Source: Lampropedia aestuarii (lineage in GTDB: Bacteria; Pseudomonadota; Gammaproteobacteria; Burkholderiales; Burkholderiaceae_C). Taken from it: DNA of 63,421 bases. Under the pieces are notes generated by a model. The model was not told the origin of the DNA, did no database searches, and worked only from the letters and a program-made list of their open reading frames with translations. A program made the position numbers and the translations under genes. The DNA is taken from assembly GCF_004803635.1 (NCBI RefSeq), contig NZ_SSWX01000023.1, positions 1 through 63,421 of the forward strand. Reading direction: 5' to 3'. Positions 222 to 35,918 of the stretch are shown here, piece by piece; position 1 is the stretch's first letter; every line of letters begins with the position of its first letter.

Positions 222-2366
222 TTAAAACAAATAGTTGCCGCTGATCAAGAAGGTGCGTGGTGCACCAGGCATGCTGCTATTGCGCCAGTAGCGTTTGTCA
301 GTGAGGTTGGTCACCGCCAAGGTCACCGTCCATGGCAGAGGGCGCCAGCCGATGGAGGCGTCAAAGCGTGCATAACCAGGGCGTTCGCTGGTGTTGGCCA
401 GATTGGTATAGGACGAGCCACGGTAAGTCACGCCCACCTCAGCATACAGGTCATTGCGTGGCACATAGCGCACAAACAGATTGCCTGTTTTACGTGCAGT
501 ATTGCTCAGTTGTTTGCCTTCGTTTGCAGGGGTTGCCACATCGCGTTTGACAATGGCTTTTTGTAGGCCAACGCCACTGCGAACATACCAGTGTTCTGCC
601 ACACGCCCAGTCAGACTCGCCTCCATACCGCGTGAGCGCTCGCCACCCCGCATTGCCCATGTGAAGGGGTCATTTTCTGCATCGGGCTGGTAGCGCACAT
701 TGTATTTTTCCAGGTTGTAGACGGCCAACTGGCTGGACAATGCATTGTCAAACCAATCGCTTTTCACACCGACTTCAATTTGGCGCGAGTATTGTGGCTC
801 TGCATCAAACACCACGTCTTCATTGACCGATACACCCAGCGTGCCACGCCCGCCATAGGGCGAGAAATTCTTGCTGTAGGACGCGTAGATGCTGTGCTCA
901 GGCACTGGCTGCCACATGATGCCCAAACGCGGACTCAGCGCATTGCCGCTGTAAGAGCGCTGCCCGTTGTTGATCAGGTTATGGGTTTTGAACGAGTAAT
1001 GCTCCCAACGCAGGCCAGCCATGATCTTCCATTGCTCAGTCAAACTGATCAAATCCTGCACATACAGGCCTTGGGCTTTGGCCGAGTGTCGGTTGGATGT
1101 GGTGGCTGCGATCTGTGCAGGTTTGCTGCTGGTCCACTCTGGGTTGTAGGGATCAACACCGCCCACATAAGGGTTGGTGGCCAAATCCGGGCTGCGTTTT
1201 TCCTGCGTGATTTCCAGCCCCATCAGCACATCATGGTCGATGCCATAGGTGTGTGCCTTGCCAATCACATCAAAGGCATTGCTGAAGGTTTTGTTATTGG
1301 TCACTTGCCAGGCACGCGTGAACGTCATCAAGCCCGGTGTATTGCATGCCGCGCCATTGCTCAAACGCGTGCCGTCCGGTTGGCAATAGCTGCCGTTATA
1401 CAAATGGTCAAAATCCTGGTTGGCATCGTGGTAGCCCAAGGTCCATTTGGCCGACCAGTCATTGCCAAAGTCATAGCCCAAGACCGAGCGGAACATGTGC
1501 ATGGTGTCTTCGACATAGTCTTCCGGATGCGCATAGGCGGTGCGGTAGGACACGTCGCTGGGCAAATTATTGTAGGAAGGCGCGCGATCAGGGCGGCGCC
1601 AGACGCTGTCATAGGTGTATTGCCCCAGCCACGTCAAGCCTTGGCGATTGTCGTAAGCGATGCTGGGCGAGAGCATTTTGTTGCGGTTTTGGATGCCACG
1701 GCGAAAGCTGTCGGCCTGCTCATAATCGGCCGTCAGACGCACTGCAAGGTTCTCGCTGACAAGACGGTTGATGTCAACGGTGCCACCACGGTTGCCATGC
1801 GAGCCCAAACGCATGCCCAGGCTGCTGAGTGACTCAAAGTTGGCCTGCTTGCTGATCATGTTCACAACACCGCCGCCTGCACCGCGGCCATACAGTACCG
1901 AGGCCGGCCCTTTGAGCACTTCAATACGTTCGATATTGGCCGTGCTGCGGCGAATTTGGCCACTGGTGCGGATGCCGTCGCGGTATATGTCGCTGCCATC
2001 GGCGCTGAAGCCACGAATCATCACGCCGTCACCGCGCATGTCGTAATTGGTGTCAACGCCTGGTACACCCTCCAGCATGACGCTCAAGTCGTTGATGCCG
2101 TAAACCTTGAATTTGCTGACCTCCAGAGTGCTGACAGTTTGCGGCACATCTTTGGTATCCAGATTGGTTTTGGTCGCCGTCGAGACGGACTTGGGGCGGC
2201 TATCGTCCAAATCCAGCGCATCGGCGGTGACAGTGACTTCTGTCAAAGCCAGGCCACTGGACTCTACACTGGCTGACGCACCGCTCTGAGCTGCTGCACT
2301 GCATGAGAGTGCCAGCATGGTCAAAGCGACTGCTAGTGGTTGAACATCGGTTGTCTTGACGGGCAT
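222..2366 (-). CDS. TonB-dependent siderophore receptor
   Basis: An outer-membrane receptor of 714 residues that probably imports a ferric siderophore with energy from TonB-ExbBD. A signal peptide ends near residue 26. A TonB-box-like stretch (LTEVTVTA) follows near residue 40, then a plug domain (about 60-165) with the family motif EVLKGPASVLYGRGAGGG. The rest is a long beta-barrel with the signature C-terminal phenylalanine. Length is normal for the catecholate receptor group (Fiu/FepA-like), but the ligand cannot be read from sequence. An AGGA lies 7 bases before the ATG and supports this start. A Fur-like box upstream points to iron repression. The gene stands alone, without siderophore biosynthesis genes nearby. 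Confidence 0.93.
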   Translation of the reverse strand: MPVKTTDVQPLAVALTMLALSCSAAAQSGASASVESSGLALTEVTVTADALDLDDSRPKSVSTATKTNLDTKDVPQTVSTLEVSKFKVYGINDLSVMLEGVPGVDTNYDMRGDGVMIRGFSADGSDIYRDGIRTSGQIRRSTANIERIEVLKGPASVLYGRGAGGGVVNMISKQANFESLSSLGMRLGSHGNRGGTVDINRLVSENLAVRLTADYEQADSFRRGIQNRNKMLSPSIAYDNRQGLTWLGQYTYDSVWRRPDRAPSYNNLPSDVSYRTAYAHPEDYVEDTMHMFRSVLGYDFGNDWSAKWTLGYHDANQDFDHLYNGSYCQPDGTRLSNGAACNTPGLMTFTRAWQVTNNKTFSNAFDVIGKAHTYGIDHDVLMGLEITQEKRSPDLATNPYVGGVDPYNPEWTSSKPAQIAATTSNRHSAKAQGLYVQDLISLTEQWKIMAGLRWEHYSFKTHNLINNGQRSYSGNALSPRLGIMWQPVPEHSIYASYSKNFSPYGGRGTLGVSVNEDVVFDAEPQYSRQIEVGVKSDWFDNALSSQLAVYNLEKYNVRYQPDAENDPFTWAMRGGERSRGMEASLTGRVAEHWYVRSGVGLQKAIVKRDVATPANEGKQLSNTARKTGNLFVRYVPRNDLYAEVGVTYRGSSYTNLANTSERPGYARFDASIGWRPLPWTVTLAVTNLTDKRYWRNSSMPGAPRTFLISGNYLF

Positions 2367-2741: not shown

Positions 2742-4496
2742 TCACGCAATCGATGCCAAGCGTGCTCCGGCTGCCACCATCTGCCCTTGCACTTGGGCAT
2801 GCGTAAGCACTCCAGTCGTGGGGGCTGTGATATTGGTTTCCATTTTCATGGCCTCCATCACCGCAATCACCTCGCCTGCTTTCACAGCAACGCCGTCGGC
2901 CACTTTCCAGGCCAGCAAGGAACCGCTGACTGGCGCAACCACACTGCCCTCCGGCCAATCTTGCGCGTCTTGACTGCTATTGCCCACATTTTGTGCCTGC
3001 TCGCCAGCAGCGGCCCCCATGCTCGACAATCCAGCCAACAACTGCGATGGCAGGCCCAGCTGAACACGCTTGCCATCGACTTCCATGAAGGTGCGGTAGA
3101 GCGTCGACTCGCGGCTGGGCTCAGGGCGCGGCGCAAACTGGATGCGCTCGGCCAATTCGGTCTCAATCCAGCGGGTGTGGACTTTAAAGCCTGCTTCAGC
3201 GGTGAAATCGGCATCCGCCACCACCGCACGGTGAAACGGCAGGACACTGGCCACCCCCTCAATCTGAAACTCACGCAGGGCACGCCGCGCGCGCTGCAAC
3301 GCTTGCTCACGCGTGGCGCCGGTGACGATCAGCTTGGCCATCATCGAGTCAAATGTGCCGGGAATGGTGCTGCCCTCGGTCACGCCAGTATCCAGGCGCA
3401 CTCCAGGGCCTGAGGGTGCGTCAAAACGCGTGATTGTGCCGGGCGTGGGCAGATAGCCGCGGCCTGCGTCTTCGGCGTTGATGCGAAACTCAAAGCTGTG
3501 CCCACGCGGCGCAGGTGCCTGCTCAAACGACAACGGCAGGCCATCGGCAATACGCAACTGCTCTTGCACCAGGTCAATGCCGGCCGTTTCCTCTGTCACC
3601 GGGTGCTCAACCTGCAAGCGGGTATTGACCTCCAGGAACGAGATTTGACCGTCCTGGCTGAGCAAAAACTCCACCGTGCCTGCGCTGACATAGCCTGCTT
3701 TGGCGCAGATCGCTTGCGCGGCTGCGTGAATGCGTTGGCGCTGCGCGTCAGTGAGAAACGGTGCAGGTGCTTCTTCGACCAGCTTTTGGTTGCGGCGCTG
3801 CAATGAGCAGTCGCGTGTGCCTACGACCACCACATGGCCGTGTGTATCGGCCAGCACCTGGGCTTCGATATGGCGTGGTTTATCCAGGAATTGTTCAATA
3901 AAGCATTCGCCCCGGCCAAATGCGGTGATCGCTTCGCGTACTGCCGATTCGTAGAGCTCAGCGACCTCGTCCATGTGCCAGGCCACTTTCAGGCCACGGC
4001 CACCACCACCATAGGCGGCCTTGATCGCAATAGGCAGGCCATGCTCGGCAGCAAAGGCCAGCACTTCCTGGGCATCCTTGACAGGCTCTTTGGTGCCTGC
4101 GACCAAAGGAGCGCCGACCTCTTGGGCAATTTTGCGCGCAGCGACCTTGTCGCCCAAGGCGTCAATGGTCTCGGGCTTGGGGCCAATCCAGACGAGGCCC
4201 GCTTCGAGCACTGCGCGGGCGAAGTCGGCTCGCTCGGACAAAAAGCCGTAACCTGGGTGGATCGCATCAGCGCCACAGCGTTTGGCAATGTCCAATAGCT
4301 TGTCAATATGCAAATAAGTTTCGGCTGGCTTGGTGCCTTGCAGCGCAAAGGCTTCATCGGCCAAGCGCACATGCAAGGCATCGGCATCCGAGTCCGCATA
4401 CACGGCCACCGACCGCACACCATAGTCAGCACAAGCGCGGGCGATGCGCACGGCGATTTCACCGCGATTGGCAATCAATACTTTACGAATCATCAT
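2742..4496 (-). CDS. Biotin carboxylase with C-terminal biotin carrier domain, pxp-linked
   Basis: An AccC-like biotin carboxylase fused to a biotin carboxyl carrier domain, about 584 residues. It should carboxylate its own biotin with ATP and bicarbonate. The N-terminal fold starts [16 protein letters not shown]. The ATP-grasp core has the glycine loop [10 protein letters not shown], and the catalytic region ends with [14 protein letters not shown]. The last 70 residues carry the biotinylation motif EAMKMET. No carboxyltransferase of the acetyl-CoA carboxylase type is nearby. The partner is probably the PxpB-PxpC fusion just upstream, whose stop TGA shares a base with this ATG (TGATG) behind a GGAG ribosome site. 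It is the last gene of the pxpA-pxpBC operon. Acting in acetyl-CoA carboxylation is the alternative, but the context argues against it. Confidence 0.9.
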
Positions 4497-6193
4497 CACT
4501 CTCCTTCTAAACCATTCAATTGCTCAACCACAAAAGGCTGCACAACGCGAAAGCGCACTTGCGCACCAGGCGGGACTTGTCCGGCCAGATCGATGTGGTG
4601 CGAAGCCACCGCCCCCACCACCGGATACCCGCCGGTCAGCGGGTGATCGGCCAAAAACAGCACCGGCTGCCCATTGGCTGGAACTTGCACGGCGCCAAGC
4701 ACTGTGCCTTCACTGGGCAATTCGACGCCCTGGTACTGCGCCTGGCGCAGCAATGGATGTGCCCCTTGCAAACGGATACCAACCCGGTTCGATTGCGCAG
4801 TGACTTCCCAGACTTGCTCAGTGAGCAGTTGCAAGGACTGCGGCTCAAACCAGTCAGTGCGCGGGCCCAGCACCAAATCCAGCCACACGGGCTCGCCTGC
4901 TTGCGGCCATTGCCGCGCCGCGTGTGCCGCAGGCCATTGCACAGCGTGCAAGTCGTTGGCCGGCACCGCCTGGCCAACCTGCACGGCATCGCCCGCCTGT
5001 ACGGCAGCTGGACCGACCATCGCCAATGTGTCGGTGGCACAACTGCCAAGGACGGCTTGCACCTCAAAGCCACCGCGCACCGCCACATAGCAGCGCAGTC
5101 CCGCCGTGCTCGGGCCCACTCGGACCTGGTCGCCATCGTCCACTGCAAAGGCCTGGTCTTGTGGCTGCTGAAAACGCTGGCCTTGCGCGGTCGTGACCTC
5201 AATGGCCACGCGCGCGCCTGTAATGGCCAGTACCGCACTGCCCTGGCATTGCCAGTGCATGCCCCCCATCACGTTCTCCAGCACTGCCGTGCCCGTCGGG
5301 TTGCCAACCAAACGGTTGGCTGTACGCATCGACTGGCGATCCAGCGCGCCAGAGACCGAAACGCCCATGCCAGTTTGGCCCAGGCGGCCCAAATCCTGGA
5401 ACACGGTTTGCAGGCCAGCGGCCTTGATAGTCAGGGCACTGCCAGTGGTTGATGCTTTGGCTGCTGACTCTGGTGGTTGTGCTGGCGCGGCGCCGGACTT
5501 CGCAGGTAAAAAGACCGTCGATTGCGAGGCCCGCGTCACATCGACAAAGCGCACCCGAAAACCAGGCTGCACCAAGGCCGGTTCGGCTCGGCTCAAATCC
5601 CACATCGCCACAGGCGTGGTGCCGATCAGCTGCCAACCGCCTGGGCTGTCTTTGGGGTAGACCGCACTGAAATGCCCCCCCATTGCCACCGAGCCGGCCG
5701 GCACCTTGGTGCGCGGTGATGGCAGGCGCGGCACTTTGTCAAAGCTGGCATGGCCGCCTGCCAGGTACACAAAACCCGGCGCAAAACCAGCGAAGGCAGC
5801 CTGGTATTCGGCACCGGTATGCCGCGCAATCAATTCTGTGGTGTCAATGTCCAGCAACTGGGCCAAGCTGCTTAAATCAGCGCCGTCATAAACCACGGGA
5901 ATCTCGACCAAACGGCTGTGCAATGCCTGCTTTGCAGCGGCGCTGCCTTGGGCCTGCGCTTGAGCTTCGGCGTCCCAACGCGCCAGCAACCGCTGTACGT
6001 GCTGCCAGATGCGCGCTGCAGTGGTGGCGTATGGTGCAAACTCGATCAAAATCGTGCACGCAGCGGGCACCATTTCCTCTACGCCGACTGGTCGATCGGA
6101 CTGCAAAGCCTCAAACAAGGCCAAAGTCTTGGCCAAGTCAGGCAGCTCAATCAAAATGGCGCGATCGCTGGCAGGCAAACACCGTGCGCTCAT
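4496..6193 (-). CDS. pxpBC: 5-oxoprolinase subunits B and C, fused (PxpB-PxpC; KipI-KipA type)
   Basis: A 565-residue fusion of PxpB (AHS1/KipI; about 1-230) and PxpC (AHS2/KipA; about 255-565). PxpB motifs include [26 protein letters not shown] and SPGGWQLIG. PxpC motifs include [15 protein letters not shown] and [16 protein letters not shown]. PxpABC hydrolyses 5-oxoproline to glutamate with ATP in many bacteria. The same two folds form the carboxyltransferase part of urea carboxylase, which matters because a biotin carboxylase/BCCP gene follows directly. A low-complexity linker (about 230-252) joins the halves. The start overlaps the pxpA stop by four bases (ATGA), showing translational coupling. 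The fusion is seen directly; the exact reaction is inferred from family knowledge. Confidence 0.92.
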
Positions 6194-6954
6194 AAGCTGC
6201 TACCTGCGACAAAGGACTTCAGGCTCACACCAGCGGCTTCGAGCTGCTGGCGCACTTGCTGGGCCATTGCCACTGCGCCAGGGCTGTCGCCATGGACGCA
6301 AATGGAGTCGGCCTGCAACGCAATCAGGCTGCCATCAATGGCCTGGATTTTGCCGGTCTCGACCAAACGCACCATGCGCTGTCCAACGATCTCAGGGTCA
6401 TGCAAGACTGCCGCTTTTTCCCGGCGCGAAACCAAGCTGCCTTCAGGCGTATAGGCACGGTCAGCAAAGGCTTCAGCGACGGTGGCCAAACCGCGCTCCT
6501 GCGCCCATTGCAAAACAGGTGTACCGGCCAGGCCCATCAACACCAGCGAGGGGTCAATCGCCAAAATGCCTTCAATGACATCGCTCGCCTGGCGCTTGTC
6601 GTAGGCGATGGTGTTGTAGAGCGCGCCATGTGGCTTCACGTAGCGCACTTGGGTACCCGCTGCTGTGGCCAGGCCTTGCAAGGCGCCTATCTGGTAGACC
6701 ACATCGGCCACCAACTCGGCGCTGCTCGGGTCCATGTTGCGCCGACCGAAACCGACCAAATCGGGGTAGCCCACATGCGCGCCTACAACTACACCACGGC
6801 TGGCTGCGGCACGCAAAGTGTTCAGGATGCCGGTTGGGTCGCCGGCATGAAAGCCGCAGGCCACATTGGCGCTGGTGACAACTTCCAGCATCGTGGCATC
6901 GTCGCCCATGCGCCAAGCCCCAAAACTCTCGCCTAAATCACTGTTCAAATCCAT
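6190..6954 (-). CDS. pxpA: 5-oxoprolinase subunit A (LamB/YcsF family)
   Basis: A cytoplasmic 254-residue LamB/YcsF protein, the PxpA part of prokaryotic 5-oxoprolinase. It begins [19 protein letters not shown] and keeps the family motifs [26 protein letters not shown] and VKPHGALYN. Length is normal. It is the first gene of a three-gene leftward operon, with four-base overlap to pxpBC. The product is divergent from a GntR regulator 128 bases away that probably controls it. The expected role is opening the 5-oxoproline ring to glutamate together with PxpBC. Confidence 0.93.
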
Positions 6955-7082
6955 GTCAATTCCCTAAGATGATGCGTCAGATAGACAACGCAATAAATAT
7001 TGTTGAGCAATCTCTATACTCGGTTTGAGCACATCGCTGTAAAACTGTTTTGTCCGCGACCCATTTTTCTACCAATGGAGCT

Positions 7083-7754
7083 ATGAGCCCTCGCCACTTC
7101 AACAACCCTATTCCCCCAGCCAGCCTGACCGAATCGGTGGCTGAACAAATTCGCCAAAAACTGATCCTGGGCGAGCTGCGCGCTGGACAACACCTGTCCG
7201 AGGCGGCACTGAGTGAGCAGCTGGATATTTCCCGCAATACCTTGCGAGAAGTGTTTCGTATCTTGATCAAAGAGGGCTTGCTGCACCACGAACCCAACAA
7301 AGGCGTCTCGGTGGTCGTGCCCAGCATGGGCGACATCATTGACATCTACCGCGTGCGCCGTTTGATTGAGTGCACGGCCCTGGCCCAGGCCTGGCCGCGC
7401 CACCCGGCGCACAAGCAAATGAAAGAAGCCGTTGAGCATGCCCAGGCCGCGCGCGAGCTGGGCGACTGGATTGCCGTGGGTTCTGCCAATATGGCTTTTC
7501 ATGCGGGCATCGTGGCCTTGGCCGACAGCGAAAGGTTGTCGGCCATGTTCTCTGACATTGCCGCAGAGCTTCGCCTGGCCTTTGGCCTGCTCGACGACGC
7601 CGAATACTTGCACGCGCCCTACGTGGAACAGAACATCAACTTGCTGGGCCTGTTTGAGACCAGCAGCCCCAGTATCGCGGCCAAGACGCTGGAGGACTAC
7701 CTGAACCAGTCCGAGCGCATGGTCCTGGCCGTTTACGCACGACAAGTCAGCTGA
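7083..7754 (+). CDS. GntR-family regulator, FadR/FCD type
   Basis: A transcription factor of 223 residues. The N-terminal winged helix-turn-helix (about 15-80) has the family pattern LTESVAEQIRQKLILGEL and SEAALSEQLDISRNTLREVF. A helical FCD effector domain (about 90-215) follows. The ATG at 7083 is preceded closely by GGAG; a TTG 33 bases earlier is possible but lacks a ribosome site. It lies between the divergent pxp operon and the co-directional TRAP genes, so it probably regulates one or both in response to an organic acid or amide. The inducer is unknown. Confidence 0.88.
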   Translation: MSPRHFNNPIPPASLTESVAEQIRQKLILGELRAGQHLSEAALSEQLDISRNTLREVFRILIKEGLLHHEPNKGVSVVVPSMGDIIDIYRVRRLIECTALAQAWPRHPAHKQMKEAVEHAQAARELGDWIAVGSANMAFHAGIVALADSERLSAMFSDIAAELRLAFGLLDDAEYLHAPYVEQNINLLGLFETSSPSIAAKTLEDYLNQSERMVLAVYARQVS

Positions 7755-8342: not shown

Positions 8343-9326
8343 ATGAAAAGACGCACCCTCCTGGCGACTGCCACATTGATTGCCGCCATGGGCGCCAGCT
8401 TCAGCGCACAGGCGCAAACCAAATGGGATCTGGCCTCAGCCTATCCGGCCTTCAACTTCCACACAGAGAATCTGGTGGAGTTCAGCAAAGATGTGGCAGC
8501 GGGCACCAACAACGAGTTGCAGATCACCGTGCACCCAGGCGCCTCGTTGTTCAAGGCACCAGAAATCAAGCGTGCCACACAAGGCGGCCAAGCCCAGGCT
8601 GGCGAGTTCTTCCTGGTGAGCTTCCAAAACGAATGGCCTTCGTTTGGCGCCGATGGCTTGCCATTCCTGGCTTCCAGCTATGAAGACGCCTACAAGCTCT
8701 ACCAAGCGCAAAAACCCATGCTGCAGAAAAAACTGGACGAGCAAGGCCTGGTCCTGCTGTATTCAGTCGCTTGGCCGCCACAAGGCATCTACACCAAAAA
8801 ACCGATTGAATCTGTGGCCGACCTCAAAGGCATGAAGTGGCGTGTGTACAGCCCAACAACGGCCCGCATTGGCGAGCTGATTGGTGCTCAGCCCGTGACC
8901 ATCCAAGAAGCGGAACTGTCACAGGCGTTGGCCACCGGTGTGGTGGAAGGCTTGATCACCTCCAGCGCGACTGGCGCAGACAACAAACTCTACGAAAACC
9001 TGAGCCACTACTACAACGTACAGGCCTGGATTCCTAAAAACGCCGTAGTCGCCAACAAGCGTGCCTTCAGCCGCCTGGATGCTGCAACGCAAGAGGCGGT
9101 GATGAAGGCCGCTGCTGAAGCAGAAGAGCGCGGCTGGAAGCGCTCACAAGAAGTGAATGCCAAATCAATTGCAACCATGAAAGACGCAGGCATGAAGATT
9201 GAGGAGCCTAGCGCACAACTCAAAGCCGATCTGGCCAAAGTGGGCGAGACAGTGGTGACTGAGTGGGTGGGCATTGCAGGTGCCGATGGTCAGGCCTTGA
9301 TTGAGGCTTACAAGGCCAGCAAATAA
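8343..9326 (+). CDS. dctP: TRAP transporter substrate-binding protein, DctP type
   Basis: A periplasmic solute-binding protein of 327 residues. A signal peptide ends near residue 25 (FSAQAQ). The mature protein shows the DctP pattern, including KPIESVADLKGMKWRVYS and the conserved arginine region around residue 167 that binds a carboxylate in this family. AAGGAA before the ATG supports the start. It is the first gene of dctPQM. The substrate is probably a small organic acid; closeness to the oxoprolinase genes makes 5-oxoproline a reasonable guess only. Two strong hairpins downstream fit the usual excess of binding protein over membrane subunits. Confidence 0.93.
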   Translation: MKRRTLLATATLIAAMGASFSAQAQTKWDLASAYPAFNFHTENLVEFSKDVAAGTNNELQITVHPGASLFKAPEIKRATQGGQAQAGEFFLVSFQNEWPSFGADGLPFLASSYEDAYKLYQAQKPMLQKKLDEQGLVLLYSVAWPPQGIYTKKPIESVADLKGMKWRVYSPTTARIGELIGAQPVTIQEAELSQALATGVVEGLITSSATGADNKLYENLSHYYNVQAWIPKNAVVANKRAFSRLDAATQEAVMKAAAEAEERGWKRSQEVNAKSIATMKDAGMKIEEPSAQLKADLAKVGETVVTEWVGIAGADGQALIEAYKASK

Positions 9327-9366: not shown

Positions 9367-9421
9367 GGCTGAGTGCATCTGAGATGCGTGTTTGCGCTCT
9401 CAGCCCCATGGGTGCATGGGG
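9367..9421 (+). other. Tandem hairpins between dctP and dctQ
   Basis: GGCTGAG (9367-9373) pairs with CTCAGCC (9399-9405) around a nested GCATC-TGA-GATGC stem. It is followed directly by CCCCATG-GGTG-CATGGGG (9404-9421). Such intergenic stems commonly stabilise upstream mRNA or limit read-through, which would raise DctP over DctQM. There is no T run. Confidence 0.5.
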
Positions 9422-9496
9422 TTTATGTGTTTGCCAACGCTGCCTTTGTCTGCGCAGCATCAGACGCCACCAGATTCCACGCAAAGGAGTATTGCA

Positions 9497-10018
9497 GTGC
9501 GGACATTTCTCAACGGCCTCTACACCACCAGCGGATGGTTGGCAGGTCTTTCCATGGTTGGCGTATTGGTGATGGTGTTGCTCACCATCGTGAGTCGCTT
9601 GTTCAGTTTTTCAGCCCCAGGCACCGATGCCTACGCCGGATACGCCATGGCCGGCGCTGGCTTTATGGCGCTGGCCAGTACCTTGAAAAAGGGCGAGCAT
9701 ATCCGAGTGACTTTGGTGCTGGGCATGCTCAAGGGCGGGCCACGCAAAGGCCTGGAGTTGCTGGCATTGTCGATTGCCGTTTTGCTGTCCGGTTTTTTGG
9801 CCTTTTATTCGGCCAGACTGGTGTGGGAGTCCTACCAGTTCAACGATATCTCTACCGGCATTGATGCCACACCCATGTGGATTCCGCAACTGGTGATGGC
9901 CGTTGGTACTTTGATTTTCTTTATCGCCTTTGTCGACGAATGGGTGCTGGAGCTGCTCAACAAGGGCCGCAGCACCGATGCTGGTGAAATCAGCCTTGAG
10001 GAGCTGACCCATGAATGA
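9497..10018 (+). CDS. dctQ: TRAP transporter small permease subunit, DctQ type
   Basis: A membrane protein of 173 residues with about four transmembrane helices, the small subunit that docks DctP-DctM traffic. The pattern KKGEHIRVTLVLGML between helices 2 and 3 is typical of DctQ. The start chosen is GTG at 9497 because AAAGGAG (9483-9489) lies 7 bases upstream; longer in-frame versions would read through the hairpins and encode an implausible leader. The end overlaps dctM by eight bases. Confidence 0.88.
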   Translation: MRTFLNGLYTTSGWLAGLSMVGVLVMVLLTIVSRLFSFSAPGTDAYAGYAMAGAGFMALASTLKKGEHIRVTLVLGMLKGGPRKGLELLALSIAVLLSGFLAFYSARLVWESYQFNDISTGIDATPMWIPQLVMAVGTLIFFIAFVDEWVLELLNKGRSTDAGEISLEELTHE

Positions 10019-11309
10019 AATAACCATTAGCATCACCTTGCTAGTCGTCTTGTTCGCCTTATTGGCAGGTGGCGTATGGGTTGGCCTGACCTTGGCCGGT
10101 GTCGCCTGGTTTGGCATGGAGGTACTGACTGGCCGCCCCGCGGGCGACGCCATGGCCATGACCATTTGGGGCTCGGCCAGTAGCTGGACCCTCACCGCCC
10201 TGCCCTTGTTTGTGTGGATGGGCGAGATTTTGTACCGCACGAATTTGTCCGAGAACATGTTCAAGGGTCTGGCCCCTTGGGTCAATGCCTTGCCAGGCCG
10301 CCTGCTGCACACCAATGTGATTGGCTGCACGATTTTTGCCTCCGTATCCGGCTCCTCAGCCGCTACTTGCGCGACCGTGGGCAAGATGAATATTCCCGAG
10401 ATGCGCAAACGTGGCTACCCCGATGCACAAATCATCGGCTCCCTGGGGGGGCCCTCGACCTTGGGCCTGCTGATCCCGCCCTCGATCATCCTGATCGTGT
10501 ATGGCGTAGCCGCTGAGGTATCCATCTCCAAGCTGTTCATGGCCGGTGTGTTGCCCGGTATTTTGCTGGCTGTTCTGTTTTCTGGCTGGATCATGGGCTG
10601 GGCCTTGCTCAACCCTGGAAAAGTCCCCAAAGCCGAAGATAACCTGAGTTTCAAACAAAAAATCTACGAAACCAGACACTTGATCCCGGTGGTGCTGTTG
10701 ATTGCCAGCGTGATTGCCAGCATTTACACCGGCATTGCGACTGCCACTGAAGCGGCGGCTGTGGGGGTAGTTGGCGCCTTGATTTTGTCAGCATCGCAAG
10801 GCGCATTGACGTGGAAAAGCTTTAGCGAATCTCTGCTGGGGGCCACACGCCTGTACTGCATGATTGCGCTGATCTTGGCTGGTGCGGCATTCATGACTTT
10901 GTCGATGGGCTATATCGGCCTGCCACGCCAATTGGCCACCTACGTCGGTAGTTTGAATCTGTCGCCCGAAATGCTGATCATCGTGCTGGGCATTTTCTAC
11001 ATCCTGATTGGCTGCTTCTTGGATGGTATCTCAACCATTGTGCTGACCATGGCCGTGGTGCTGCCCATCATCAAGGCTGCTGGTATTGACCCATTGTGGT
11101 TTGGTATCTTCCTGGTGATCACCGTCGAGACCGCCCAAATCACACCGCCGGTGGGCTTTAACCTGTTTGTGCTGCAAAGCATGACGGGCAAGGAAATTAC
11201 CTACATCGCCAAGGTCTGCGCACCGTACTTCTTCTTGATGGTCTTTGCCCTGGTCCTGCTTTGGTTCTTCCCTGGCTTTGTGACTTGGCTGCCTGCGAAA
11301 ATGCTGTAA
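10011..11309 (+). CDS. dctM: TRAP transporter large permease subunit, DctM type
   Basis: A polytopic inner-membrane protein of 432 residues with about twelve helices, the sodium-coupled translocation subunit of the TRAP carrier. Family motifs include SSAATCATVGKMNIPEM, GGPSTLGLLIPPSIILIVYG and QITPPVGFNLFVLQ. The ATG lies inside the end of dctQ with eight-base overlap, so the two are coupled. A strong terminator follows, which closes the operon. Confidence 0.94.
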   Translation: MNEITISITLLVVLFALLAGGVWVGLTLAGVAWFGMEVLTGRPAGDAMAMTIWGSASSWTLTALPLFVWMGEILYRTNLSENMFKGLAPWVNALPGRLLHTNVIGCTIFASVSGSSAATCATVGKMNIPEMRKRGYPDAQIIGSLGGPSTLGLLIPPSIILIVYGVAAEVSISKLFMAGVLPGILLAVLFSGWIMGWALLNPGKVPKAEDNLSFKQKIYETRHLIPVVLLIASVIASIYTGIATATEAAAVGVVGALILSASQGALTWKSFSESLLGATRLYCMIALILAGAAFMTLSMGYIGLPRQLATYVGSLNLSPEMLIIVLGIFYILIGCFLDGISTIVLTMAVVLPIIKAAGIDPLWFGIFLVITVETAQITPPVGFNLFVLQSMTGKEITYIAKVCAPYFFLMVFALVLLWFFPGFVTWLPAKML

Positions 11310-23633: not shown

Positions 23634-23869
23634 GTAAAAAAATTTTCTCCGCCGATAACAGCGCCAATCGCCACGCGAACCAAGGCATGGTCATCGCAGG
23701 CGCTGCAGGCCCAACTATTTAAAAAACGCTTAGAGCCTGCTCTACAACTTGTTCTAACTGTTCTTACTAACGAGTGAGCCGCTATTTCTGCTGACAAGAG
23801 TCACAATGAATATATATATTGGCAAAATTGCAAAGAATTCTATCCAATCCCGCTCCACAGCTGACTGAC
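23634..23869. promoter_or_regulatory. Divergent promoter region between the ABC exporter and cphA'
   Basis: A 236-base spacer that must hold both promoters. The stretch near 23800-23825 is AT-rich. A degenerate repeat end (CTTAGAGCCTG, about 23729-23739) lies inside. I see no clear operator. Confidence 0.45.
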
Positions 23870-26053
23870 ATGGCGAAATACAACAACATTGAACTATTGC
23901 GCACCACGTTTTTGCGTGGCCCCAGTGTCTGGACCTACCGCCCTGTATTGGAAGTCTGGCTTGATCTGGGAGAACTTGAAGACTTCCCCTCCAACACCAT
24001 TGACGGTCTCAATGAACGGCTGACTGCCTGGCTGCCCGACCTGATCGAGCATACATGCGGCATCGGCGAGCGCGGTGGCTTTATCCAGCGCCTCGAAGGC
24101 GGCACCTGGATGGGCCATGTGATGGAGCACGTGATCATTGAGCTCTTGAACCTGGCGGGCATGCCAGCCGAGTTTGGCCAGACGCGTGAAATCTCCAAGC
24201 GCGGCATCTACCGCATGGTGTTTCGCTGTCCAGAAGAAACCGTTGCCCGTGTGGCCTTGAAATGGGGTCACCAGCTGCTGATGGCCGCCATCAATGATGA
24301 GCCGTTTGAACTCAAACCCGCAATCCAGGCAATCAAGACCGCCATCAACGAACGCTATCTGGGCCCTTCGACTGGCTGCATCGTCGATGCCTGCACCGCA
24401 CGGCGAATTCCGCATATCCGCCTGAACAGCGGCAACCTGGTGCAACTGGGCTATGGCGCAGCGCAGCGCCGCATCTGGACTGCAGAGAGCGATGAGACCA
24501 GCGCCATTGCCCAGGGCATCGCCCAGGACAAGGACTTCACCAAACGCCTGCTGAGCGCTTGCGGCGTGCCTGTGCCCGAAGGCCAGATCGTCGCCTCGGC
24601 CGATGAGGCCTGGCAAGTGGCGCAAAAAATTGGCTGCCCCGTCACTGTCAAACCTTCGGATGGCAACCATGCCCGTGGTGTCACGCTGGATCTATCGGAA
24701 GAAGCGGAGATCAAGGCAGCCTTTGCCTTGGCACAGCCGGAAGGCTCACAGGTGATTGTCGAAAAATTCATCGATGGCGTTGAGCACCGCCTGCTGGTGG
24801 TTGGCGGTCAAGTGGTTGCGGCCACCAAAGGCGAAACCGTCTCGGTGTATGGCGATGGCCAGGCCACGTTGCAGCAGCTGGTGGAAGTCCTGAATCAAGA
24901 CCCACGCCGCGGCCCCGAGCATGAATACCCGCTGGACTGGATCAACCTGGAAGCTGGTGCGGTGAAACTCGAACTCAACCGCCAGCAACTCACACCTGAT
25001 AGCGTGATTGCCAAAGGCCAGGCGGTGCTGCTGCAACGCAATGGCAATATGGCGATTGACTGCCTGGACGATGTGCACCCTGATGTCGCCTACTACGCAA
25101 GCCTGGCAGCCCAGATCGTGGGTCTGGACATTGCCGGCATGGACATGATTTTGAAAGACGTCTCCAAGCCTATGCTGGGCCAAGGCGCGATTTTGGAAGT
25201 CAATGCAGGGCCGGGCCTGTTGATGCACCTGAAACCGACCAGTGGCACGCCCCGCCCAGTTGGCATGGCCATTGCCGACCACCTGTTCCCGCGTGACGCT
25301 GGCAGCGATGCCGGACGTATTCCGATTGCCAGCATTGTCGGCACACGCGACAACGCCTTCATCGCCCGCCTAGTCGGCTGGCTGCTGCAACTGTCTGGCA
25401 AACACACCGGCGTGGCCAGCAGCGAGGGCATGTTCATTGCCAACAACCTGATCCAGCCCAGCAGTGCCAGCAACTGGGCCGGTGCCGAGCGCATCCTGAC
25501 CAATAGCCTGGTACAAGCGGCTGTGATTCAAACCACGGCCCGCTCAATTCTCGAAGAAGGTCTGGCCTACGACCGCTGCCTGGTCGGTGTGGTCACCGAC
25601 ATGGATGGCTTTGAGTCACTGGCCGACCACGATGTGCTGGAGCCTGGGCAGATGCGCCGTGTGATGCGCACGCAAATTGATGTAGTGCTCAGCAACGGCG
25701 TGGGCGTTTTGAATGCCGATCTGCCCGAGGTCGCCGATCTGGCCGAGTTGTGCGATGGCGAGGTGATTCTGTACGCGAGCAGCGCAGACAACGAAACACT
25801 CACCGCACACCGTGCCAACACCGAAGCGCGCCGCGCAGGCGGCCGTGCAGTCTTGCTCAAAGGCACACAAGTCGTATTGGCCACGGGTGCCCAAGAGCGC
25901 GTATTGGGCACGCTGGATGCATTGGTGCTCTCTGGCGGCATCCGCCCAGACACATCGGCCTTGCTGGCAGCCATTGCGACGGCATGGGCGCTCGATATCA
26001 CACCCGAGCTGATTGGCGCTGGCATCACAACTTTTGAGTACGCAATTCACTAA
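23870..26053 (+). CDS. Cyanophycin synthetase-like protein CphA' with degenerate Mur P-loop
   Basis: A 727-residue relative of cyanophycin synthetase. The N-terminal domain (about 1-160) and ATP-grasp domain (about 215-470) look intact, with VKPSDGNHARGV and EVNAGPGLLMHL. The Mur-ligase-like core that follows has lost its ATP-binding loop: where active CphA has GTKGKTTTT, this protein reads GTRDNAFIA near residue 490. The start at 23870 fits the family N-terminus (MAKYNNIELLRTTFLRGP). It lies 100 bases before cphA in the same direction. Paired CphA' and CphA occur in several betaproteobacteria. It may add only one of the two amino acids, or be a partner subunit. Confidence 0.88.
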   Translation: MAKYNNIELLRTTFLRGPSVWTYRPVLEVWLDLGELEDFPSNTIDGLNERLTAWLPDLIEHTCGIGERGGFIQRLEGGTWMGHVMEHVIIELLNLAGMPAEFGQTREISKRGIYRMVFRCPEETVARVALKWGHQLLMAAINDEPFELKPAIQAIKTAINERYLGPSTGCIVDACTARRIPHIRLNSGNLVQLGYGAAQRRIWTAESDETSAIAQGIAQDKDFTKRLLSACGVPVPEGQIVASADEAWQVAQKIGCPVTVKPSDGNHARGVTLDLSEEAEIKAAFALAQPEGSQVIVEKFIDGVEHRLLVVGGQVVAATKGETVSVYGDGQATLQQLVEVLNQDPRRGPEHEYPLDWINLEAGAVKLELNRQQLTPDSVIAKGQAVLLQRNGNMAIDCLDDVHPDVAYYASLAAQIVGLDIAGMDMILKDVSKPMLGQGAILEVNAGPGLLMHLKPTSGTPRPVGMAIADHLFPRDAGSDAGRIPIASIVGTRDNAFIARLVGWLLQLSGKHTGVASSEGMFIANNLIQPSSASNWAGAERILTNSLVQAAVIQTTARSILEEGLAYDRCLVGVVTDMDGFESLADHDVLEPGQMRRVMRTQIDVVLSNGVGVLNADLPEVADLAELCDGEVILYASSADNETLTAHRANTEARRAGGRAVLLKGTQVVLATGAQERVLGTLDALVLSGGIRPDTSALLAAIATAWALDITPELIGAGITTFEYAIH

Positions 26054-26153
26054 GCCAAGCCACGCGCACCCCCATCCCACTTGCTGAGGACTCACCGCGC
26101 AAGCGTTGGTCCCCCAAACACCCATAACGTGCTATCCAGCTGAAAGACACACA

Positions 26154-28280
26154 ATGCAGATCAATCGCAGCCGCGCCCTGCGTGGCCCCAACCTGTGGAC
26201 CCGCAGCACCGCCATCGAAACCATCGTTCATTGTGAAAACAGCGAACTGCGCTATAGCGCCATCGCTGGCTTTGAAGAGCAACTGCGTGCCCGCTTTCCC
26301 ACCATTGGCATCTTGCAGCCCGAGGGCGCTGACCAGCCACTCTCGCTGGCCCATGTGCTGGAGCGCGCTGCCTTGTCGCTGCAAATCCAGGCCGGCTGCA
26401 CAGTCAGTTTCAGCTGCACCCACGAAACAGTGCAGCCAGGCACCTTCCAGGTCGTGGTCGAGTACACCGAAGAATCGGTTGGCACACTGGCTTTAAAGCG
26501 CGCCGAGGAACTGATTCAAGCCGCTCTGGAGGACACACCGTTCGATCTCGACGCCTGCATTGCCGAGCTGCGCGAGCTCGACGAAAACGAGCGCATGGGC
26601 CCCTCGACCGCAGCGATTGTGCATGCCGCCATCGCGCGTGGGATTCCGTTTCGCCGACTCAACAGCGGCTCTTTGGTGCAACTGGGCTGGGGCTCGAAAG
26701 CACGGCGCTTTCAGGCCGCTGAAATCGACTCGACCAGCGCGGTGGCCGAATCGATTGCCCAAGACAAGGATTTGACCAAACGCCTGCTGCATGCCGCTGG
26801 CGTGCCGGTGCCACTAGGCCGCCCAGTCAAGAACGTGCACGATGCGTGGCTGGTGGCCGAAGCCATTGGCTTGCCAGTGGTGGTCAAGCCGCAAGACGGC
26901 AACCAAGGCAAAGGTGTGGTGGTCAACATCACCAGCCGCGAGGATCTTGAAAAGGCTTTCCATGTCGCCCGCGGCTTCAGCGAAGACGTGATGGTGGAGC
27001 GCTATTTGCCCGGTCACGACTTCCGCCTGCTGGTCGTAGGCCGACAACTGGTGGCCGCAGCGCGCCGTGAGCCACCACAAGTGCTGGGCGATGGCCAGAG
27101 CACTATTCGTGAACTGGTCGACATCGTCAACCAGGATCCGCGCCGCGGCAGCGGCCATGGCACGGCGCTGACCACCATCCGCCTCGATGACATCGCCATG
27201 GCCCGCCTTGCCAGCGAAGGCCTGACGCCAGAGTCCGTGCCAGCACAAGGCCAGCGTGTGGTGCTGCGCAACAACGCCAACCTGTCGACTGGTGGCAGCG
27301 CCACCGATGTGACCGATGACGTACACCCCAAAATCGCCGCCCGTGCGATTGAGGCGGCGCAAATCATTGGCCTGCACATTTGCGGCGTCGATGTGGTCTG
27401 TGAAACCATGCTCAAGCCCTTGGAAGAGCAAAACGGCGGTATTGTCGAAGTCAATGCGGCCCCAGGCTTGCGCATGCACCTTGCTCCCTCGTTTGGGCGC
27501 CCGCGCCATGTCGGCGAGCCCATGGTGGATGAACTCTACGCCCCCGGCGATGATGGCCGAATTCCGGTCGTTGCAGTAACGGGCACCAAGGGCAAAACCA
27601 CCACGACCCGGGCCATTGCCCATTTGTTCGCCTCGCACGGCTGGCGCACCGCCATGGGCACGACCGATGGTGTCTTTGTCAACGGCAGGCAGATCCACAC
27701 CGGCGATGGCTCAGGCCCAGCCAGCGCGCGCAATGCGCTGGCACACCCCGAAACCGATGCGGCCGTGCTCGAATGCGCACGCGGCGGCATTTTGCGTGAA
27801 GGCCTGGGCTTTGACCGCTGCCAGGTAGCCGTGATCACCAATGTCGGTAATGGCGAGTACCAGGGTCTGGACTACATCGTCACCAAAGAAGACGAAGCCG
27901 TGCTCAAACGCGTGGTTGTGCAAAACGTTGCCACTACCGGCTACGCCGTGCTGAACGCCGCCGACCCGCTGGTAGCCGCCATGGCCCATGTATGTCCTGG
28001 CAAAGTCATCTTTTTTGCCACGGACCGCCACCACCCGGTCATGCTCACCCACCGCGCACAAGGCAACCGGGTTGTCTATGTCGATGGGGATGCGATTGTC
28101 GCGGCCGAAAGCGCTTGGCGCGAAACCATCGCACTACGCGATATTCCACTGACGCGCAATGGCACGCTTGGCTTTGAAGTAGAGAACATCATGGCATCCA
28201 TTGCGGCGGCATGGGCAGTCGATGTGCCATGGCAAACCATTCGCCGCGGCCTGTCGGGCTTTGCCAACGAGCAGCATTGA
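26154..28280 (+). CDS. cphA: Cyanophycin synthetase, C-terminally truncated
   Basis: CphA builds the aspartate-arginine polymer cyanophycin. This copy has 708 residues. The N-terminal domain and ATP-grasp domain (VKPQDGNQGKGVVV, EVNAAPGLRMHL) are present, and the Mur core has an intact P-loop GTKGKTTTT near residue 475. The protein stops after RGLSGFANEQH, where canonical CphA of about 860-875 residues continues into the Mur lid domain that helps bind the incoming amino acid. Roughly 145 residues are missing and no remnant follows: a copy of the dispersed repeat begins about 20 bases after the stop. The enzyme may have lost arginine addition. The start at 26154 matches the family N-terminus (RALRGPNLWTR). 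Confidence 0.88.
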   Translation: MQINRSRALRGPNLWTRSTAIETIVHCENSELRYSAIAGFEEQLRARFPTIGILQPEGADQPLSLAHVLERAALSLQIQAGCTVSFSCTHETVQPGTFQVVVEYTEESVGTLALKRAEELIQAALEDTPFDLDACIAELRELDENERMGPSTAAIVHAAIARGIPFRRLNSGSLVQLGWGSKARRFQAAEIDSTSAVAESIAQDKDLTKRLLHAAGVPVPLGRPVKNVHDAWLVAEAIGLPVVVKPQDGNQGKGVVVNITSREDLEKAFHVARGFSEDVMVERYLPGHDFRLLVVGRQLVAAARREPPQVLGDGQSTIRELVDIVNQDPRRGSGHGTALTTIRLDDIAMARLASEGLTPESVPAQGQRVVLRNNANLSTGGSATDVTDDVHPKIAARAIEAAQIIGLHICGVDVVCETMLKPLEEQNGGIVEVNAAPGLRMHLAPSFGRPRHVGEPMVDELYAPGDDGRIPVVAVTGTKGKTTTTRAIAHLFASHGWRTAMGTTDGVFVNGRQIHTGDGSGPASARNALAHPETDAAVLECARGGILREGLGFDRCQVAVITNVGNGEYQGLDYIVTKEDEAVLKRVVVQNVATTGYAVLNAADPLVAAMAHVCPGKVIFFATDRHHPVMLTHRAQGNRVVYVDGDAIVAAESAWRETIALRDIPLTRNGTLGFEVENIMASIAAAWAVDVPWQTIRRGLSGFANEQH

Positions 28281-33875: not shown

Positions 33876-33929
33876 ATGGTGGGGCTGTGACGGCCCCTTC
33901 TCTTTGTTGCCGCCTCATTGTTTTTTCCC

Positions 33930-35918
33930 ATGGCCTCCAATCAAGACCCAAGCAACCAAGCCCCCAGCAAGCCACTGGCCCCTAAAGAGGTCTGTCAATT
34001 CAAACTGCTGGCACAAAAGCGTTTTGCCCCATTTTTCTGGACGCAGTTTGCCGGTGCCGCCAACGACAATCTGTTCAAGTTCGCCTTCACTGTCTTGGTC
34101 ACCTACCAGCTGACGATCAGTTGGCTGCCAGCGCATATGGCAGGCCTGGTGATTGGTGCGGTCTTCATACTGCCGTATTTGCTGTTCTCGGCCACTGCGG
34201 GCCAACTGGCCGACAAATACCCGCACCAGTTGATTATTCGGCGTCTCAAGTTGCTGGAAGTCGCGATCATGGTGCTGGCGGCGGTGGCCTTTTTCTTCAA
34301 CTGGATCGCCGTGCTCTTGCTGTGCATCTTTTTAATGGGCTTGCAGTCCACGCTGTTTGGCCCGGTCAAATACGCGTATTTGCCGCTGCAACTGCGCCCC
34401 GCCGAATTGACCGGTGGCAATGGCATGATCGAGATGGGCACCTTTGTCGCCATCGTGCTGGGTAGCCTGGTAGGTGGCGTCCTGATTGATGCGGGCAGCG
34501 CAGGTCGCATCTATGTCGCCACTGGCTGCATGGTGCTGGCGATGGTCGGTTACTGGAGCAGCACCCGCATTCCAACGATGGCGGCGACCGATCCTGGGCT
34601 GCGCATCAACCTGAACCCGTTCAGTGAGACCTGGAAGAACCTCAGCATTGCGCGCCAGAACGTTGTGGTGTTTCGCTCGGTGCTGGGTATCAGCTGGATG
34701 TGGTTTGTCGGCTCGGTACTGATGAGCCAGTTCCCAGTCATTGCCAAGGAAGTGCTGTACGGCAATACCCAGGTCGCCTCTTTGCTGCTGGCGGTGTTTG
34801 CGATTGGTATCGGCATCGGCTCGCTGCTGTGCGAGGTGCTCTCGCACAAGCAAGTTGAGATTGGCCTGGTGCCGGTAGGCGCCCTGGGTATGAGTGTGTT
34901 TTTAGTGGATTTGTATTTCGCCACACGCCATTTGCCCGATCCGGGCCATTTGCTGAGCGTGGCAGAGTTCGCCAGCTCCCTGGCCAATTGGCGTGTGATG
35001 GTCGATTTGCTGCTGCTGTGCCTGTTCACCGGACTTTACAGCGTGCCGATGTATGCGCTGGTGCAAATGCGCTCGCAGCCATCGCACCGCGCCCGCATCA
35101 TCGGCGCCAACAATATTCTCAACGCCGTGTTCATGATTGCCAGCGCCATTCTGACGGGTTTGCTGCTGCAATGGGGCTTGAGCATTCCGCAAATCTTCCT
35201 GGTGCTGGCCCTTGCCAATGCAGTTGTCGGCGCCTATGTCTTCTTGCTAGTGCCCGAGTATTTGCTGCGTTTTGTAGCCTGGATTCTCACGCATTTGGTC
35301 TACCGCTTCAGCATCCGCGGGCGCGAGAACATACCCGCCGCAGGCCCGGCCATTCTGGCGTGCAACCATGTGAGCTTTGTCGATGCCGTGTTGCTGATGG
35401 CCGCCAGTCCCAGACCGATTTACTTCATCATGGACTACCGGATTTTTCGCAACCCGGTGCTGGGCATTATTTTCCGCATGGCCAAGGCGATCCCGATTGC
35501 GCCGCAGCGCGAAGACCCAGCCGCCTTTGAAGCCGCCTTTGCCAAAGCCGCTGAGGCCTTGCGCAACGGCGATCTGGTCGGCATTTTTCCCGAGGGCGCG
35601 ATCACCCGAGACGGCCAATTGCAACGCTTTCGGCGTGGCTTGCAAAAGATTGTGACAGACGTACAGGCCGAAGGCATCAACCCACCAATCGTGCCAATGG
35701 CCTTGTCCAATCTGTGGGGCTCGTTCTTCTCACGCATCGAAGTGCGTGACGGCCAGAATGTCGCAATGGTCAAGCCATTTCGCCGTGGCATGTTCAGCCC
35801 CGTTGGCCTGGACATAGGCCCTGCAATGCCGAGCCATACCAGCCCTGAAGAGCTGCAAAAGCAGGTGCAGGCCTTGCTAGAGCAAGCTGGCCAAGCCCAG
35901 CCATCCGCCTCGGCTTAA
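33930..35918 (+). CDS. MFS lysophospholipid flippase fused to acyltransferase
   Basis: A 662-residue fusion. Residues 1-430 are an MFS transporter of the LplT type (FWTQFAGAANDNLFKFAFTV is typical), and residues 450-655 are a PlsC-like acyltransferase with the HX4D motif in CNHVSFVDAV and FPEGAITRDG. LplT flips lysophospholipids inward and the acyltransferase re-acylates them. Many relatives carry a third acyl-ACP synthetase domain; this one ends after the acyltransferase and would need an acyl donor from elsewhere. The ATG at 33930 is preferred to a TTG 12 bases upstream. Confidence 0.9.
   Translation: MASNQDPSNQAPSKPLAPKEVCQFKLLAQKRFAPFFWTQFAGAANDNLFKFAFTVLVTYQLTISWLPAHMAGLVIGAVFILPYLLFSATAGQLADKYPHQLIIRRLKLLEVAIMVLAAVAFFFNWIAVLLLCIFLMGLQSTLFGPVKYAYLPLQLRPAELTGGNGMIEMGTFVAIVLGSLVGGVLIDAGSAGRIYVATGCMVLAMVGYWSSTRIPTMAATDPGLRINLNPFSETWKNLSIARQNVVVFRSVLGISWMWFVGSVLMSQFPVIAKEVLYGNTQVASLLLAVFAIGIGIGSLLCEVLSHKQVEIGLVPVGALGMSVFLVDLYFATRHLPDPGHLLSVAEFASSLANWRVMVDLLLLCLFTGLYSVPMYALVQMRSQPSHRARIIGANNILNAVFMIASAILTGLLLQWGLSIPQIFLVLALANAVVGAYVFLLVPEYLLRFVAWILTHLVYRFSIRGRENIPAAGPAILACNHVSFVDAVLLMAASPRPIYFIMDYRIFRNPVLGIIFRMAKAIPIAPQREDPAAFEAAFAKAAEALRNGDLVGIFPEGAITRDGQLQRFRRGLQKIVTDVQAEGINPPIVPMALSNLWGSFFSRIEVRDGQNVAMVKPFRRGMFSPVGLDIGPAMPSHTSPEELQKQVQALLEQAGQAQPSASA

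Follow-up and report, generated by a model that had tools for sequence, protein, structure and literature searches.

This study was concerned with a 63,421-nt stretch of DNA from Lampropedia aestuarii, the whole of contig NZ_SSWX01000023.1 (GCF_004803635.1), which is referred to as the window. Three overlapping genes on its minus strand encode what is probably a single biotin-dependent 5-oxoprolinase, a reading to which we assign a probability of roughly 0.7. The genes specify a hydrolase (PxpA), a fused carboxyltransferase of the KipI-KipA type (PxpBC) and a protein in which a biotin carboxylase (BC) is joined to a biotin carboxyl carrier protein (BCCP). The partnership between the BC-BCCP protein and PxpBC is well supported, and the biotin protein is very likely the working partner of PxpBC rather than a stray acetyl-CoA carboxylase subunit. 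The classical prokaryotic 5-oxoprolinase, PxpABC, was reportedly described by Niehaus in 2017, and the 5-oxoprolinase described so far uses only ATP. The biotin-type cluster differs from that enzyme, and the window carries its full gene set.

The three overlapping genes

The first gene encodes PxpA, a LamB/YcsF hydrolase of 254 aa (6190..6954, minus strand), which scores 337.9 bits against LamB_YcsF in Pfam and 376.7 bits against the NCBIfam PxpA model (cut-off 226). Its stop codon overlaps the start of pxpBC in a 4-nt ATGA (6190..6193). The pxpBC gene (4496..6193, minus strand) encodes a fusion of 565 aa in which CT_C_D (PxpB/KipI) precedes CT_A_B (PxpC/KipA), as identified by Pfam. The end of pxpBC overlaps the start of the third gene by 4 nt (4496..4499). 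This gene (2742..4499, minus strand) encodes the 585-aa BC-BCCP protein, which is of the AccA3 type by its Pfam domains, its relatives in the PDB and a BC tree. Its listed start is the GTG at 4499, and the ATG at 4496 could serve equally well. The sequence-only reading had proposed three genes overlapping at both junctions and supplying a biotin carboxylase, a carrier with EAMKMET, KipI-KipA domains and PxpA; all of these were confirmed.

The BC-BCCP protein contains Biotin_carb_N, CPSase_L_D2, Biotin_carb_C and Biotin_lipoyl domains. The predicted biotin-attachment lysine, K552 (codon 2844..2846, minus strand), lies in the motif EAMKMET, and every one of the 12 proteins aligned (window and 11 relatives) has A-M-K-M. 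Nine BC positions (K118, K160, H210, E277, E290, N292, R294, E298 and R339), whose catalytic role we assume from the E. coli BC, are also invariant in all 12. By sequence, with complete BC domains and a carrier with a predicted biotin lysine, this is a predicted biotin-dependent carboxylase.

The PxpBC fusion is the only PF02682 gene in its own genome. It falls below the cut-offs of the PxpB equivalog TIGR00370 (122.9 against 145.55 bits) and the PxpC equivalog NF045499 (164.4 against 500 bits) and reaches the broader TIGR00724 (238.5 against 230.2 bits). An AlphaFold2 model built from 40 alignment rows was graded confident (predicted local distance difference test 91.0, predicted template modelling score 0.91). 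The model matches the folds of TTHA0988, MSMEG_0435-0436, YbgJK and the carboxyltransferase of urea carboxylase. Thus, the cluster resembles classical PxpABC in its full family member PxpA, in the TTHA0988 and YbgJK matches to its PxpB and PxpC folds and in reaching TIGR00724, but differs in its dedicated BC-BCCP and in missing both equivalog cut-offs. In addition, classical PxpBC commonly has a glutamine at PxpB 175 and a basic residue at each of PxpC 390 and 525 (window numbering here and below), and the window protein has none of these.

Urea carboxylase (TIGR02712; PDB 3va7, 5i8i) has the same modules, namely BC, BCCP and a KipA/KipI carboxyltransferase, and the same residues at PxpB 188 and 198 and PxpC 390 and 518. 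However, it is a single polypeptide of the order BC-CT-BCCP (CT, carboxyltransferase), whereas the window has two proteins; BC-BCCP scores 516.7 bits and PxpBC 159 bits, and the TIGR02712 cut-off is 1303.85. The BC domain is also of another lineage, and PxpA takes the place of allophanate hydrolase as the partner hydrolase. Lombard and Moreira noted in 2011 that bacteria and archaea have a pair of neighbouring genes resembling the halves of the carboxyltransferase of urea carboxylase, and stated that functional data on them were lacking (PMC3199775). A literature search, which took in titles and the beginnings of abstracts and mostly did not extend to subscription papers, found no mention of a biotin-dependent 5-oxoprolinase. 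Fungal lamA is a precedent, on which the search returned nothing relevant.

Pairing of BC-BCCP with one type of PxpBC

In a draw of 199 Pseudomonadota genomes, PF02682 gave 112 match rows in 81 genomes. Of these rows, 90 neighbourhoods (up to 8 kb per side) were analysed and the window's own locus was added separately; another 21 rows, all open frames of at least 1180 aa, were assumed to be of the urea carboxylase type and left out. Thirteen of the 90 neighbourhoods were of the urea carboxylase type. Among the other 77 loci, 11 had a fused BC-BCCP beside PxpBC, eight had a separate BC and 58 had no BC in the stretch. The window and the 11 fused-type loci form one clade in the PxpB plus PxpC tree (Shimodaira-Hasegawa-like approximate likelihood ratio test, SH-aLRT, 100). 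The converse search with BC-BCCP (E up to 1e-150, six candidates scored per genome) found 12 genes in 11 of the same 199 genomes, and these were the same 12 loci as the PxpBC clade.

A second set consisted of 80 named-genome loci, the top matches among 582 relatives, of which 69 are from Pseudomonadota; its species may overlap with those of the window clade. In this set a BC adjoins PxpBC in 76 of the 80 loci, including 69/69 in Pseudomonadota. It is a fused BC-BCCP in 75 of the 76 and is cut by a contig end in the other, and PxpA lies within the stretch in 74 of the 75. The four loci with no BC are all from Actinomycetota, and two of them (L200 and L204) end at a contig end. Chance adjacency was therefore rejected, because 75 of the 80 loci pair a fused BC-BCCP with PxpBC and the converse search agrees. 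One genome (G198) was seen by eye to contain both the window type and classical PxpABC.

The biotin carboxylases joined to these carboxyltransferases represent distinct recruitments. The best PDB relatives of the window BC-BCCP are of the AccA3 type, at 746.6 bits (mycobacterial AccA3) and 717.5 bits, and the next scores 475.2 bits. In the BC tree, which took in 8 of the 13 urea carboxylases and, after one sequence of insufficient length was dropped, 7 of the 8 separate BCs, the window protein lies in a clade with actinobacterial AccA3-type proteins (43 rows, SH-aLRT 100). The BCs encoded separately next to other PxpBC loci cluster with AccC-like proteins (support 95), and the BCs of urea carboxylases are placed elsewhere. 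Thus, since the tree separates AccA3-like, AccC-like and urea carboxylase BCs, KipI/KipA carboxyltransferases have been combined with BCs of at least three kinds.

The window PxpBC lineage is nested inside a clade of PxpBC proteins from actinobacteria (76 rows, support 99), and the window BC-BCCP is 57% identical to a Marisediminicola BC-BCCP encoded outside that genome's pxp locus. A class-level draw of 118 Actinomycetes genomes contained PF02682 in 60, with 74 match rows. The best 55 rows were covered (54 fetched, plus L186), and the other 19 scored at most 143.6 bits and comprised long frames, fragments and a few middle-sized frames. A BC was present in the stretch in only 1 of the 54 loci, 12 of which have stretches shorter than 14 kb, mostly at contig ends. 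A search of 45 of the 54 genomes found an AccA3-type BC-BCCP in 44, and 43 of the 44 have it exclusively outside the pxp locus; the exception with no match is G307, where 30 of 44 candidates were scored. Actinobacterial PxpBC thus appears to borrow the shared AccA3 subunit.

A solved structure bears on this. By its title, PDB 9yx5 (released 2025-11-26) shows MSMEG_0435-MSMEG_0436 bound to a long chain acyl-CoA carboxylase complex from M. smegmatis, and its chains include AccA3. MSMEG_0435-0436, also solved as a pair alone (3mml), are the best solved relatives of the window PxpC and PxpB, have the same GPR.DWF and DHP.TGGYPV stretches and have a partner BC-BCCP of the same AccA3 type. The entry is independent physical evidence that this type of PxpBC binds an AccA3-containing complex. 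The two systems differ in that the partner BC-BCCP belongs, by the title of the entry, to an acyl-CoA carboxylase complex, whereas in the window it is encoded in the pxp operon.

The PxpBC types also differ, in most loci, at three positions. The biotin-type signature is an aromatic residue at PxpB 175, an aliphatic residue at PxpC 390 and an uncharged residue at PxpC 525. Counted by eye from residue lists, the combination occurs in 12/12 of the window clade, 80/80 of the named-genome set, 13/13 urea carboxylases, and 5/5 of a clade labelled Sa plus L082. It occurs in 0/57 of the other rows with no BC, which mostly have Gln, Arg/Lys and Lys/Arg. In actinobacterial loci, counting the rows that include each position, 175 is aromatic in 52/54, 390 is aliphatic in 49/50 and 525 is uncharged in 49/49. 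In PDB alignments, E. coli YbgJK and Thermus TTHA0988 have the classical residues and MSMEG_0435-0436 the biotin-type residues. PxpB 188 was dropped as a marker, as it fails in many actinobacterial rows.

In a tree-topology test (three long-branch rows excluded), grouping the window clade and Sa with urea carboxylase on the same side of a branch improved on the unconstrained quick tree by 17.9 log units (approximately unbiased test, p-AU 0.742). Holding the window clade and Sa alone together was 23.2 log units worse (p-AU 0.168), and for that reason no claim is made for this pair. The sequence-only reading had described a split urea-carboxylase-like biotin machine acting with PxpA. That description is supported by the exclusive co-occurrence in the genomes searched, the recruitment of different biotin carboxylases to the PxpBC family, the residues common with urea carboxylase and the structure in which a relative is bound to a carboxylase that contains AccA3.

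A second biotin-linked design was also observed at four loci (L076, L078, L080 and L083), with the order pxpA, a tiny BCCP (frames of 86-109 aa), an AccC-like BC, pxpB and pxpC. These form a separate clade with biotin-type residues, and a fifth locus of this design (L081) is cut by a contig end. A BC and BCCP near PxpB/PxpC at L045, L063 and L104 may represent a different recruitment or unrelated neighbours.

Substrate, mechanism and alternatives

The genes beside the cluster suggest its substrate. On the plus strand, and so divergent from the cluster, lies a GntR/FCD regulator (7050..7754; Pfam), probably of the pxp cluster; related GntR genes stand beside many related clusters. It is followed on the same strand by the three genes of a tripartite ATP-independent periplasmic (TRAP) transporter: the solute receptor DctP (8343..9326; Pfam), the small membrane subunit DctQ (9392..10018; Pfam) and the large permease DctM (10011..11309; Pfam, NCBIfam). 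The receptor is closest to PDB 2pfz (384.8 bits) and 2pfy (280.6 bits), which we take to be Bordetella DctP6 and DctP7. Both of these receptors have been solved with 5-oxoproline, according to PMC13274462, and the TRAP system beside the cluster probably imports 5-oxoproline.

In relatives, a Nramp-family transporter often replaces the TRAP genes and a gene of the D-glutamate cyclase family lies between pxpA and pxpBC. Among the 57 Pseudomonadota loci with stretches of 14 kb or longer, the Nramp gene was found in 28, the cyclase in 31 and the DctP type in 4. The cyclase-family gene was confirmed with Pfam at L165 (7182-7985; PF07286, NCBIfam 'putative hydro-lyase') and in its equivalents at L055, L047 and L110, and its position hints at a link between D-glutamate and 5-oxoproline. 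The Nramp-family protein presumably corresponds to YcsG/PxpT, and the Bacillus subtilis cluster, we assume, also has both the cyclase and the Nramp-family transporter. Growth of Corynebacterium glutamicum ATCC 13032 on 5-oxoproline needs PxpT and PxpABC, as stated in PMC13274462. For the substrate, the sequence-only reading had offered either 5-oxoproline or a different amide, and these transporter and cyclase neighbours favour 5-oxoproline.

The reaction may be envisaged in three steps. First, the BC, whose domains are fully conserved together with those of the carrier, would consume ATP and bicarbonate in carboxylating the biotin carried by K552. Secondly, the carrier would deliver the carboxybiotin to the PxpBC fusion, which would act as a carboxyltransferase, a step we infer because of the homology to urea carboxylase and PDB 9yx5. 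The 5-oxoproline would be carboxylated, most likely at the ring nitrogen by analogy with the conversion of urea to allophanate, to give an activated imide. Third, PxpA would hydrolyse the activated ring, and the resulting carbamate would break down to glutamate and CO2.

Several points weigh against a biotin-dependent 5-oxoprolinase. The structure 9yx5 shows binding, not catalysis, and the literature search found no publication on it. The signature was chosen after inspecting the same alignments in which it was counted; for this reason the actinobacterial loci and the MSMEG pair are the fairer tests. Three loci with a BC close to PxpBC (L045, L063 and L104) show the classical residues, L082 has no BC in the stretch although it lies in the biotin-type clade Sa, and L169 and L198 have no BC within the flank, yet both genomes contain the AccA3 type. 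In the larger PxpBC tree with actinobacterial rows (11 rows, and 3 with no PxpC, excluded; 15 of the 80 named-genome loci included), support for all biotin-linked groups on one side was 72.6, which is not significant. Neither an Nramp nor a DctP gene was present in 25 of the 57 Pseudomonadota loci, and in Bordetella pertussis, the source of the best receptor relatives, use of 5-oxoproline could not be demonstrated, according to PMC13274462.

The complex could be biotin-dependent and act on another lactam, a cyclic amide or a urea derivative. The missed PxpB and PxpC cut-offs, the presence of urea carboxylase in the same fold family and the 25 loci with neither transporter sought are in keeping with this. 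However, PxpA is a clear family member, the window receptor is closest to 2pfz and 2pfy, and the D-glutamate cyclase and Nramp-family transporter recur beside related clusters, so that a different substrate appears unlikely.

It is also conceivable, though quite improbable, that the BC-BCCP is bound for regulation or supplies ATP turnover or carboxyphosphate, with the lactam phosphorylated instead of carboxylated. For classical PxpBC, phosphorylation of 5-oxoproline is assumed (PMC13274462), and the unrelated caprolactamase needs bicarbonate, carboxyphosphate routes being discussed in PMC8453981. However, the biotin motif is kept in all 12 aligned proteins and a phosphate route would not need biotin. 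At PxpC 390 and 525 the biotin type has uncharged residues in place of the basic ones, and a site that handles phosphate would be expected to favour the reverse.

The least probable alternative, and a very remote one, is that the BC-BCCP lies in the pxp operon by accident and is a normal alpha subunit of an acyl-CoA carboxylase, with its carboxyltransferase elsewhere and PxpABC using only ATP: its nearest solved relatives are AccA3-type proteins, but its pairing with one PxpBC type is exclusive in the 199 genomes and in the 69 named Pseudomonadota loci, and the carboxyltransferases of its own genome can all be assigned to other BCs. That genome has five Biotin_carb_C genes and five Carboxyl_trans (PF01039) genes. 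Two of the latter (C67, C3) lie 2-3 kb from another BC, one shares a 1106-aa frame with a BC (C6), and two (C13, C5) are AccA/AccD-sized and were assigned, by size only, to a 454-aa AccC-like gene on C45. Since all five are assignable to other BCs, none is left for the window BC-BCCP. An acyl-CoA carboxyltransferase was thus rejected as its partner; the sequence-only reading had named such a pairing elsewhere in the genome as contrary evidence, and none was found when it was looked for by position and size.

Two published cases speak for this alternative. PMC11315280 describes a six-gene operon of S. aureus that includes pxpB, pxpC, accB, accC and pxpA; as in the window, biotin carboxylase and carrier genes lie in a pxp operon, but AccB and AccC are separate and are ascribed to fatty acid synthesis. 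In Lactiplantibacillus pentosus an extra copy of BC and BCCP and pxpB/pxpC are reported side by side, with no link drawn between them in the passages of PMC12427679 consulted.

Wider reading and other genes in the window

A broader interpretation, which we regard as having even odds, is that there are two functional types of PxpBC and two ways to spend ATP on a lactam, the classical one with no biotin and the biotin-dependent one. Most actinobacterial 5-oxoprolinases would be of the biotin type and borrow AccA3. A copy of AccA3 would have been captured into the operon in Actinomycetota, in Micrococcales-like lineages, and this capture would make the enzyme transferable to Pseudomonadota, which otherwise have no AccA3. 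The cassette probably originated in Actinomycetota and reached Pseudomonadota with the captured AccA3-like copy. Because AccA3 would be borrowed from acyl-CoA carboxylases, use of 5-oxoproline would compete with fatty acid and mycolic acid synthesis.

5-Oxoproline arises unavoidably from glutamate and glutamine. PxpABC-type genes are reported from the majority of 984 genomes analysed (PMC13274462). If a large part of the family is biotin-dependent, many annotated extra acetyl-CoA carboxylase subunits would be 5-oxoprolinase subunits. In addition, nitrogen recycling and lipid synthesis in Actinomycetota would draw on a common subunit, and a lactam would join the substrates of biotin-dependent carboxylases. 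The three signature residues provide a first test for sorting genomes by PxpBC type.

Several other genes were noted in the window. Adjoining the cluster, an open reading frame (ORF) of 714 aa (222-2366, minus strand) reads like a TonB-dependent outer membrane receptor. Further along the window, a 744-aa ORF (23819-26053) precedes a gene for a 724-aa cyanophycin-synthetase-like protein (26106-28280, plus strand) with Mur ligase, RimK and cyanophycin synthase N-terminal domains. Lastly, a 666-aa ORF (33918-35918, plus strand) combines major facilitator superfamily transporter and acyltransferase domains.

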